A program made the position numbers and the translations under genes. Below the pieces are notes generated by a model. The model saw only the letters and a list, made by a program, of their open reading frames with translations. It was not told the origin of the DNA and did no database searches. Shown here piece after piece: positions 18,001 through 20,472 of a DNA stretch of 64,000 nt; the first letter of the stretch is position 1, and each line of letters starts with the position of its first letter. The stretch is from Centroberyx gerrardi (Eukaryota > Chordata > Actinopteri > Beryciformes > Berycidae), in contig NC_136002.1 of the NCBI RefSeq assembly GCF_048128805.1, forward strand, positions 29,482,476 to 29,546,475. The letters are read 5' to 3'.

Positions 18001-20472
18001 GGATATGAGTTACATCCTAGAATAGTCATCCAAAAAAAATGAGATTTGAGCAGCGGTTTGGGAGTGAACCTCTGCCTCCTCACCAGCGGCGGCTCGTCCT
18101 GGTCGTATTTGCGCATGGAGGACATGAAGTGCAGGTGGCGGTTCTGCTCCTCCAGAGTCACCAGGTCCTGCTCCCTGTCCTGCAGACGCTGCTGAGCTCC
18201 GGCCAACTCATCCCTCAACCACTGGTTCTCCTGACAGAGACGACGCACCTGAGGAGGAGGAGGAGGGGGTGGGGGGGGGACACAGGAAGGAGAAAGAGGA
18301 CAGAAACAAGGAGGAGTAGAAGGATGAAGGAGGAGGAAAGGAGGAGAGGAAGGAGTGGGAGGAGTAAAAGGAGGAAGAGAAGGATGAGAAGAGGGAGCGG
18401 GAAAAGAACAAAGAGGACAAGAAGAGGAAGACGGAGAAGGACAAGAAGAAGAAGAAACGGGATGAGGAGAATGTTTTTGTTTATCCCGGGAAGCGTTCTG
18501 CTGCACATTCATATAATTAATGTAATTACACACATTCACTGGGATCTGCCCAGTAAACCACAGTCCACTGGGGCTACGCCTCTGATCTCAGTCATACGCT
18601 TTAAAAAAAGACAGAAAGAGGAAGAGTTTCATGAATCATGAAGCTGCTCAGAGATTTTACACTGCACTGCCAATGAAAGCTGCTTATTAGTAAGAAGGGC
18701 ATTTACATATTTCTGCTGTCAGTTAAGATAAACATCTTTAGATTAACGTTGACGGCTGTTCAATTGGAATGTTTTACAATGAATGATTGAATTGGTTTTT
18801 TTAGATCCTCGGGCCATAAAACCTACTCAGCCTATAGAGAAACATGTAAACATTTAAATCAAGTAAAACAAAGTTTGGAGGTACAAGTTTTCCACATTGC
18901 AACGGCATGAGTAATTCATCAGCCTCTGTAATTTCTGCCGTTTCCCACAGCGTCTCACCTGGGCCCTCAGCTTCTGCTTCTCTGCCTCCAGTGACCCCAG
19001 GTGGGCCGACAGCGCCATCATCACCTGGAGGAGAGACCACAAAAACATGATGGAGACGAGAGAAAAGGACTGAGGAGTAAAACCCTTAATAATAGTTAAT
19101 AATATAAACCAAACATCCAAAATACAAATTCAATAAATTATCAATCAAAACTTATAAACCAAGCATCAAAAACATTCACTGTGACTCTGCCCCTATTCTG
19201 TTCTATTCTCTTCTCTTCTATCCTCTCCTCTCCTCACCTGAGCCTCCCCCAGCTCCATCCTCTCCTCTCCTCACCTGTGCCTCCCTCAGCCCCAGCTCCA
19301 TCCTCTCCTCTCCTCACCTGTGCCTCCCCCAGCCCCAGCTCCATCCTCTCCTCTCCTCACCTGTGCCTCCCCCAGCCCCAGCTCTCTCCTCTCCTCTCCT
19401 CACCTGGGCCTCCCCCAGCCCCAGTTCTATCCTCTCCTCACCTGTGCCTCCTCTCGCCCCAGCTCTCTCCTCTCCTCACCTGTGCCTCCCCCAGCTCCAT
19501 CCTCTCCTCTCCTCACCTGAGCCTCCCCCAGCCCCATCCTCTCCTCTCCTCACCTGTGCCTCCCCCAGCCCCAGCTCTCTCCTCTCCTCACCTGGGCCTC
19601 CCCCAGCCCCAGCTCTATCCTCTCCTCTCCTCACCTGTGCCTCCCCCAGCTCCATCCTCTCCTCTCCTCACCTGTGCCTCCCCCAGCCCCAGCTCTATCC
19701 TCTCCTCTCCTCTCCTCACCTGTGCCTCCCCCAGCCCCAGCTCTATCCTCTCCTCTCCTCACCTGTGCCTCCCCCAGCTCCATCCTCTCCTCTCCTCACC
19801 TGTGCCTCCCCCAGCTCCATCCTCTCCTCTCCTCACCTGTGCCTCCCTCAGCCCCAGCTCTATCCTCTCCTCTCCTCTCCTCACCTGTGCCTCCCCCAGC
19901 CCCAGCTCTCTCCTCTCCTCACCTGTGCCTCCCCCAGCCCCAGCTCTATCCTCTCCTCACCTGTGCCTCCCCCAGCTCCATCCTCTCCTCTCCTCACCTG
20001 TGCCTCCCCCAGCCCCAGCTCCATCCTCTCCTCTCCTCACCTGTGCCTCCCCCAGCCCCAGCTCTCTCCTCTCCTCACCTGTGCCTCCCCCAGCCCCAGC
20101 TCCATCCTCTCCTCACCTGTGCCTCCCCCAGCTCCATCCTCTCCTCTCCTCACCTGTGCCTCCCCCAGCCCCAGCTCCATCCTCTCCTCACCTGTGCCTC
20201 CCCCAGCTCCGTCCTCTCCTCTCCTCACCTGTGCCTCCCCCAGCTCCATCCTCTCCTCTCCTCACCTGTGCCTCCCCCAGCCCCAGCTCTATCCTCTCCA
20301 GTGACTGGCGGATGATGCCGCTCTTCTCCTGCTCCACGCTGCCGCTCTCGGCCGGCCGGCTCTCCATCGCCTCCTGCAGGTTCTCCAGCAGCGTGCGGTT
20401 CTCTCCTCTCAGAGCCTCCAGGCCTGCGATCACCTGCTGCGTGCTGCAGAGAATCTCTTCCCCCGACAACAT
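6024..20472 (-). CDS. klc3: Kinesin light chain 3, complete coding region, 14 coding exons, 513 aa
   Basis: KLC subunit of kinesin-1; it links the motor to cargo in the cytoplasm. Coding exons, 5' to 3' on the minus strand: 20472-20266, 19024-18959, 18248-18084, 16623-16548, 14422-14277, 13400-13318, 12675-12588, 12042-11941, 11442-11269, 9909-9810, 8183-8003, 6834-6768, 6110-6024; all have GT-AG borders and matching phases (13 blocks listed; the start exon also has 36 nt of 5'UTR to 20508, and non-coding exon 1 lies upstream). N-terminal heptad coiled coil about residues 1-145, beginning [20 protein letters not shown]; an LDDLFP acidic autoinhibitory motif at 158-163; [20 protein letters not shown] then TPR1-5 at about 185-400; a phospho-Ser type tail with [15 protein letters not shown] and [12 protein letters not shown]; last residues [19 protein letters not shown]. 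The tail and 513-aa length fit KLC3 (human about 504 aa, from memory), which also lacks TPR6. Position between ercc2 and ckm supports klc3. The terminal exon was placed by its strong TTTTCCCTGCAG acceptor and its KLC-like end. Confidence 0.93.
8187..9370. repeat. (CAGA)n-rich array, about 1.2 kb, in a klc3 intron
   Basis: Plus-strand CAGA units interrupted by GAGA and by AATGAAAGA/GTGAAAGA blocks. In the klc3 sense strand this reads CTGT, and the last CTGTCTGTCTCTAG is the acceptor of the 8183-8003 exon, so the array supplies the polypyrimidine tract. The long reading frames in all phases here are low-complexity artefacts. Confidence 0.97.
9371..9809. other. Unique part of klc3 intron between the 9810 and 8183 exons
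   Basis: About 440 bases of non-repetitive intron. I looked on both strands for the KLC exons that encode TPR6 (the PIWMHAEEREE and GEYGGWYKACK segments of other KLCs) and found none. Confidence 0.7.
10085..10205 (+). repeat. LINE-type 3' tail fragment (TATA-AATAAAG end)
   Basis: Ends in gtaaagcactttgtaaac... and gctatacaaataaagttg, the kind of 3' tail common on fish L2-like LINEs. Similar tails occur at about 12800-13000, 29255-29400 and 62180-62270 in this window. Confidence 0.5.
10235..11260. repeat. TCCC/TTCC minisatellite ending in a C25 run, klc3 intron
   Basis: A pyrimidine array (plus strand) of CTCCCTCC, TTCCCT and CATCTCTC blocks with a loose higher-order period of about 157 bp in its centre, ending in 25 consecutive C at 11235-11259. 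In the klc3 sense strand this is a G-rich purine array starting within 10 bases of the donor of the 11442-11269 exon. Confidence 0.95.
11640..11870. repeat. Degenerate TTAGGG/GGTTA-rich stretch in klc3 intron
   Basis: Many imperfect TTAGGGTTA, GGTTAGGAT and GGGTTAAGGTTA phrases. It looks like a decayed telomere-type or GGTTA microsatellite; no perfect tandem TTAGGG run is present. Confidence 0.5.
11903..11928. repeat. (GT)n microsatellite close to a klc3 donor
   Basis: Thirteen GT units, 12 bases beyond the donor of the exon ending at 11941. Confidence 0.95.
12051..12093. repeat. (CA)n microsatellite at a klc3 acceptor
   Basis: Interrupted CA run beginning within 10 bases of the acceptor of the 12042-11941 exon; on the sense strand it is TG-rich and lies where the polypyrimidine tract would be. 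Confidence 0.95.
12795..13000 (+). repeat. LINE-type 3' tail fragment in klc3 intron
   Basis: T-rich stretch ending in tagcactttctg...aggtgctatacaaatc and aagtttattattattt, matching the tails at 10085-10205 and 29255-29400. Confidence 0.5.
13427..13458. repeat. (GT)n microsatellite near klc3 acceptor
   Basis: About 16 GT units some 25 bases upstream (transcript sense) of the 13400-13318 exon. Confidence 0.95.
14021..14155 (+). mobile_element. SINE fragment, same family as the copy at 36004
   Basis: Contains ccttgagcaaggcactg and aaccccaaactgctcc followed by gtgtgaatgtgtgt, matching the body of the tRNA-derived element at 36004-36280 without its tRNA head. It lies about 120 bases downstream of a klc3 exon. 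Confidence 0.6.
14953..15640 (-). mobile_element. 3' end of an L2-like non-LTR retrotransposon (truncated)
   Basis: The minus strand codes (15571-15164) for the C-terminal end of a reverse-transcriptase polyprotein. Readable phrases are [50 protein letters not shown] and KNSFVPAAV, typical of fish L2/Maui-type LINEs. A short 3'UTR follows and ends in GTACAAATAAAGTAACC with AACCTG tail repeats at 14953-14970. The 5' part is missing. It lies in a klc3 intron in the same orientation as klc3. Confidence 0.85.
15645..16240. other. klc3 intron sequence, nothing recognised
   Basis: About 600 bases of intron between the LINE fragment and a GGA/AAG-rich purine stretch. No coding or repeat match is evident. 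Confidence 0.6.
16265..16425. repeat. GGA/GAA purine-rich stretch in klc3 intron
   Basis: Nearly pure purine on the plus strand (gaggagg, gaagaag), interrupted and without a fixed unit. Confidence 0.8.
16497..16538. repeat. (CA)n microsatellite near klc3 donor
   Basis: About 20 CA units ending about 10 bases from the donor of the 16623-16548 exon. Confidence 0.95.
16812..18040. mobile_element. DNA-transposon-like repeat carrying a nested hAT insertion
   Basis: Starts with GCCACGTTCACACTGCAGG at about 16817 and contains two internal copies of a segment with gtaggtacaaaaacg and gagttacatcctagaat. A related piece lies inverted at about 57845-58170, where the end reads gcagtgtgagcggagcc. The sequence is split by the hAT element at 17628-17995. 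Confidence 0.6.
17628..17995. mobile_element. hAT-type MITE, 368 bp, nested in another repeat
   Basis: Left end TAGTGCTGAAATGATTA and right end TTAGTTGCAGCCCTA form hAT-type imperfect inverted ends. Flanks GTGTCGGA (17620-17627) and GTATCGGA (17996-18003) match at 7 of 8 positions. Interior phrases (tttgggctctgggaacttg, gacattttatagact) recur in the copy at 23139-23400. Confidence 0.8.
18249..18470. repeat. GGA/GAAG purine array next to a klc3 acceptor
   Basis: GAGGAGGAGG and AGGAAGGAG blocks on the plus strand start immediately at the acceptor of the 18248-18084 exon. In the sense strand it is CTCC-rich and serves as the polypyrimidine tract. Confidence 0.9.
19231..20265. repeat. klc3: Minisatellite built from a klc3 exon end plus its 5' splice site
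   Basis: About 1.03 kb of 32-47 bp units. On the klc3 strand each unit reads GAGCTGGGG, optional CTGGG, GGAGGCACAG, GTGAGGAGAGGA. This is the last ten codons of the start exon ([10 protein letters not shown]) plus its donor. I count 27 occurrences of the CAG/GTGAGG-type junction, the 27th being the exon's own donor at 20266. A few units have a C-for-T change (TGAG to TGGG side) or lack the CTGGG insert. The array lies wholly in the first coding intron, between that exon and the 19024 exon. Confidence 0.95.

Follow-up and report, generated by a model that had tools for sequence, protein, structure and literature searches.

A minisatellite of 5′ splice sites at the start-codon exon border of klc3 in Centroberyx gerrardi

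The kinesin light chain 3 gene (klc3) of the fish Centroberyx gerrardi carries a minisatellite that opens at the true border of the start-codon exon and holds a consensus 5′ splice site in every unit. Among the 27 donors of this array, the first is the only site that can yield KLC3 protein. The gene occupies the minus strand from 20508 to 6036 of the window, by which we mean the whole 64-kb stretch of DNA analysed here, and which sits on contig C6 of a 779-Mb assembly of 278 contigs. The reading we favour, with a probability of roughly 0.7, is that a minisatellite born by slippage was seeded over the exon-intron border and then expanded, that donor 1 is the productive site while use of the distal donors is noise, and that the array is close to neutral.

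Results

A query of 402 amino acids, hand-joined from ten translated exons, matched klc3 of many fishes, with the top matches from Diretmus argenteus and Polymixia lowei (96%). Residues 1-510 of the 515-residue Diretmus protein mapped to 20472-6036 on the minus strand (tblastn, rows above 60% identity). The exons and the array at the 5′ end of the gene are:

20266-20508, minus strand: klc3 start-codon exon, 243 nt, ATG at 20472, encoding MLSGEEIL...IELGLGEAQ, with a phase-0 3′ border at 20266 (sequence, protein match and tblastn)
20260-20268, minus strand: donor 1, CAG/GTGAGG, the sole junction joining exon 2 in frame without a stop (in-silico splicing of the 27 donors)
19223-20299, minus strand: minisatellite with 27 junctions of exon tail and donor, comprising 26 post-border units of 37, 38, 43 or 48 bp (Tandem Repeats Finder and unit table)
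18959-19024, minus strand: klc3 exon 2, leaving an intron 1 of 1,241 nt from donor 1 and of 213 nt from donor 27

Tandem Repeats Finder described the array as 27.3 copies with a period of 37 (score 1375). Exact CAG/GTGAGGAGA junctions were found at all 27 positions, their last exon bases running from 20266 to 19238 on the minus strand over a span of 1,029 nt, and all 26 decoys equal the true donor across these 12 nt. In each unit roughly 20-33 bases from the end of the exon, varied by small indels, precede the first intron bases. A first-pass annotation of this stretch had proposed the klc3 gene, its strand, 27 junctions and a border at 20266, and the junction table, exon map and protein match agree with it on each of these; its description of the unit as exon tail plus donor, with an identical decoy in every copy, also holds. 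The word CAGGTGAG occurred on average 0.07 times, and at most once, in 1,000 mononucleotide shuffles of 19180-20320. Outside the array it was found four times on the minus strand and never on the plus strand of the remaining window, and three of those four occurrences were other klc3 exon ends (18959, 13318 and 6768), as judged by exon maps.

The 26 post-border units comprise 16 distinct sequences. Every unit can be aligned to the 43-bp unit with at most one indel of 5 or 6 bp, the 37-, 38- and 48-bp classes each lying a single such indel away, and the units together show 11 distinct substitution types. None of these 11 types falls inside the 9-nt donor core, a result that is not significant as a sign of constraint (chance probability 0.076). 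That the donors are constant therefore requires no selection; homogenisation and youth would suffice to explain it. Variation among units also bears on the idea that the array is an assembly artefact and that the real array is far shorter or absent. Assemblies are known to be weak at tandem arrays, but a false expansion would more probably be uniform, and this array is only about 1.1 kb long within a contig of at least 32 Mb; we consider an artefact very improbable.

The array is 82% purine. No match to the strict G-quadruplex pattern (four runs of at least three G) was found within it, alongside 43 matches to a loose two-G pattern and 42 runs of four or more G, such that weak quadruplexes might conceivably form. 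The AG/GT form of every junction would be compatible with recursive or zero-length-exon splicing, in which each CAG/GTGAG serves as both acceptor and donor and the intron is removed stepwise. In no unit is the AG preceded by a polypyrimidine tract, however, and the purine content of the array led us to reject this explanation as scarcely credible. Open reading frames (ORFs) of 472, 398 and 264 amino acids cross the array on the plus strand; these were read as stop-free pyrimidine-rich sequence and not as a gene, and no search was made with them.

All 27 donors were joined in silico to klc3 exons 2 and 3. From donor 1 the frame was open through exon 3, across the conserved border codons EAQ/VMMAL. 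A stop-free frame was kept by none of the 26 distal donors: splicing from donor 2 shifted the frame and ended it after residue 116, donor 3 gave a stop after residue 94 at the exon 2 junction, and donors 4-27, like full intron retention, gave a stop after residue 94 within the array. The stop responsible is:

20188-20190, minus strand: first in-frame stop past the border, TGA, inside donor 3 (last exon-side base 20192) and 25 codons past the border

This stop is supplied by the donor itself, because GTGAGG contains TGA, which comes into frame at donor 3. Since even GTGAG contains TGA, a donor array of this type tends to poison its own read-through when its unit is not a multiple of three. Offsets that preserve the frame occur at seven of the distal donors (7, 11, 12, 15, 16, 21 and 25), all of them beyond the stop. 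It had been suggested that the reading frame stays open through several units and that splicing from a distal donor could add repeats of ELGLGEAQ to the kinesin-binding coiled coil. The peptide does recur, as ELGL(G/R)EAQ or ELGEAQ, seven times past the border in the frame of exon 1, but every copy lies after the stop, whose T is at 20190 and which precedes donor 7, the first frame-preserving donor. With the frame closed this early and all 26 distal donors ending in a frameshift or stop, insertion of repeated peptide is refuted for this allele, and as a general explanation of the array it is exceedingly improbable.

Proteins from other species were consistent with use of the simple border. Among the best 120 of 3,940 klc3-like matches, 108 had an EA[QKE]/xMMAL junction and the other 12 had uninterrupted border variants, such as VMTAL and MVMAL; inserted residues at the exon 1/exon 2 border were found in none of the 120. 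A search with klc3 exons 1 and 2 located three other kinesin light chain (KLC) loci in the genome (L047, L048 and L049), in all of which the border of the homologous exon falls at the same codon (GAGGCACAG/GTA), and none of which has a donor array within 1.5 kb. Over that distance the word AGGTRAG was confined to the border in L047, absent from L048, and present once in L049, 1,208 nt on.

A protein search with exon 1 plus its read-through returned 66 short ORFs, of which 5 were spliced proteins and 61 ran into the intron. Valine followed the border in 61/61 of the klc3-like read-through ORFs, and a second close ELGLxEAQ copy was found in none of them over the 1-57 residues (median 15) that they extend past the border. 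One of the 61 (P0142) has EIELGRPGEAQ twenty residues past the border, where this exon tail may have been duplicated separately. In a Goodea atripinnis protein (P0133), klc3 exon 1 was joined straight to exon 3 (EAQ/VRRLVQ), and the skipping of exon 2 may be a gene-model error.

Donor-bearing arrays were also found elsewhere in the genome. Triple-donor patterns greatly outnumbered their reversed controls, with 1,656 genome-wide matches against 38 for CAGGTGAG, 2,214 against 2 for CAGGTAAG and 135 against 22 for CAGGTGAGT; we do not trust these figures as enrichment, because matches overlap within arrays and a reversed word is a weak control. The 24 donor-bearing loci examined were all the arrays in the first-listed places of these three pattern searches. 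Four of the 24 (L037, L058, L040 and L056), representing three genes, lie at an exon or exon-like end; the other 20 were not shown to do so, and some of these (L038, L044 and L034, for example) could go either way.

The exon peptide at L037 matches spastin (spast; 4e-11). Its array (781-1700) begins at the spast exon border and contains 23 GTGAGT donors at 39-40-bp spacing, and an exon at 1907 is presumably the next spastin exon. The Pfam AAA match to the joined L037 peptide was weak and below the cut-off (E 0.045), and no Pfam family scored above the cut-off for four peptides from array loci, one of them from L038. A second copy of the spast locus (L058, minus strand, from about 3217) lies on the same contig at a distance of about 106 kb, inverted relative to the first, with flanks 96-98% identical and 10-11 donors. 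The difference between 23 and 10-11 donors shows that such arrays change length. The L037 array is about 800 bp from the contig end, and ORFs downstream of it are, we assume, like the reverse transcriptase of long interspersed nuclear elements.

The remaining two calls rest on open frames and splice-site continuity. At L040, in a gene that we take to be srf, three donors are repeated in a 29-bp unit of exon tail plus GTGAGAACATAG. At L056 a 34-bp unit combines exon tail and donor; the gene has a long open exon that is rich in Glu/Lys and coiled-coil-like, and decay is visible in some donors of the array (GTGAGC, ATGAGT). Donor 1 is the one site in each of the four loci that joins the next exon in frame and stop-free; at spast and L056 the second donor shifts the frame, yet no stop follows within the short exon used for the test.

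DNA matches to the klc3 array were scored for 40 of 409 candidates elsewhere in the genome. The best were GGAGAG-rich arrays (L002-L008) at 71-72% identity, in which CAGGTGAG was rare: 0-1 copies in L004-L008, and in the overlapping L002/L003 six on one strand and one on the other. We read this resemblance as one of base composition and on that ground rejected homology of the klc3 array with these arrays. A different array of at least 9 kb, at C10:28432723-28442128 (L045 is one edge), alternates an acceptor-like TTTTGTTTCCACAG with the donor CAG/GTAAGT, and in many units about 9 nt separate the acceptor-like and donor words, resembling a chain of micro-exons.

Several other arrays adjoin klc3 exons. 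A 1.3-kb TAC/GTA-type array (20538-21840) ends about 30 nt before the start-codon exon, and this 243-nt exon is therefore squeezed between two kilobase-scale arrays. About 10 nt beyond the klc3 donor at 11269 there is a run of 25 G (11235-11259) followed by a GA-rich array (10256-11229), and a 1.2-kb CTGT-type array (8188-9363) reaches the klc3 acceptor at 8185-8184. The window also contains a 50-bp unit in 6 copies with 97% matches (32863-33165) and a 12-bp unit in 38 copies with 84% matches (61638-62105).

Discussion

The origin of the klc3 array may be traceable to a short direct repeat whose copies lie on either side of the exon border:

20288-20298, minus strand: exon copy of GAGAGGATAGA, at the start of the first unit and 43 bp from the distal copy in the collapsed-array model
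19217-19227, minus strand: GAGAGGATAGA at the distal array edge, forming an 11-bp direct repeat with the exon copy

When the array is collapsed to one donor, a single slippage between these two copies gives the 43-bp unit 15. We propose that slippage between the 11-bp repeats, across the 3′ border of the exon, would have produced the first duplicated unit, and that the shorter and longer units would then have arisen from the 43-bp unit by small indels. Donor 1 is probably the main site in use, because it defines an exon of normal size (243 nt, compared with up to 1,271 nt) and because nearly all of the G-runs in the array lie on its intron side; G-runs downstream of a donor assist that donor. 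Splicing at donors 2-27 would then amount to noise, giving frameshifted or truncated mRNAs of the kind removed by nonsense-mediated decay (NMD), and the array would persist since it is nearly neutral.

A number of points weigh against this account. There are six further GAGAGGATAGA copies inside the array, and the copy at the distal edge could be a truncated last unit instead of a pre-existing seed. In such purine-rich sequence the units can be aligned with their indels in more than one place. The read-through ORFs of other species are short, at 1-57 residues, and arrays lying past a stop or out of frame would have been missed among them. The predominance of donor 1 is itself a prediction. Between two strong competing 5′ splice sites the acceptor-proximal one often wins, and by this preference the distal klc3 units would be favoured; donor 27 leaves a compact intron of 213 nt, so distal use could be sizeable. 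In DOK7 intron 4 the 5′ splice site nearer the acceptor is preferred, but it is also the stronger of the two, which lie 11 nt apart and are regulated by SRSF1 (PMC5585400). DOK7 resembles klc3 in that donors of one exon compete and one choice leads to a frame-shifted, truncated product; it differs in that klc3 has 27 identical donors over 1 kb and no known regulator.

The nearest precedent for the klc3 array is the donor minisatellite of human IFI6 (6-16). The IFI6 unit is about 12 bp long and preserves the frame, and its extra units add amino acids. The klc3 unit, by contrast, is 37-48 bp of exon tail plus donor, is mostly frame-breaking and carries its own stop, and in klc3 the units past the first are candidate donors. 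Judged by its structure, the klc3 array would nonetheless belong to the same known kind of donor-bearing minisatellite. The spast arrays are alike in beginning exactly at an exon donor and in having only donor 1 in frame without a stop, and unlike in that their unit is the 5′ end of the intron only, with no exon tail, and that the locus is present in two copies. Our literature search, which most subscription papers fell outside, found no paper linking kinesin light chain, minisatellite and splicing and none on splice-donor tandem-repeat minisatellites in fish genomes. The first-pass annotation had called such an array unusual, which needs qualifying in light of the human precedent and of the 4/24 sampled donor-bearing arrays in this genome, from three genes, that lie at exon or exon-like ends.

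An alternative to a nearly neutral array is that distal donors take a sizeable share of U1 small nuclear ribonucleoprotein and of splicing, that their transcripts become NMD substrates, and that copy number thereby tunes KLC3 output. The identity of all 26 decoys with the true donor over 12 nt, each leading to a premature stop, fits this idea, as does the variation in copy number of the sibling spast array. For human IFI6, two of the downstream repeat units are reported to serve as donors, giving three mRNA species (PMC4526556). Distal-donor use in klc3 is hypothetical, however, and neither the three paralogs nor the 61 read-through ORFs showed the array, giving no sign of a conserved control element; the lack of significant donor-core constraint (P 0.076) points the same way. 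We regard regulation of KLC3 by unproductive splicing as unlikely.

The four exon-end loci raise a broader question. That exon-end donor arrays recur and change length in this genome is offered here as a lead. CAG/GTGAG words are often true donors, so that some exon-end arrays are expected by chance. It is doubtful, and in our view quite unlikely, that such arrays form a recurrent class of labile copy number whose self-stopping structure makes them copy-number-dependent dials of unproductive splicing on conserved genes.

Seen more widely, the klc3 array is a natural test of how the spliceosome chooses among 27 identical 5′ splice sites of which only the first is productive, and the spast pair, with 23 and 10-11 donors in sequence about 97% identical, allows array length to be compared naturally on a matched background. 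Should distal donors be used, the length of the minisatellite would tune how strongly motor and microtubule genes are expressed; should they be unused, exon context would strongly override donor sequence. For klc3 itself, the array looks like a chance stutter of the DNA that splicing must cope with, and not like a source of protein variants.

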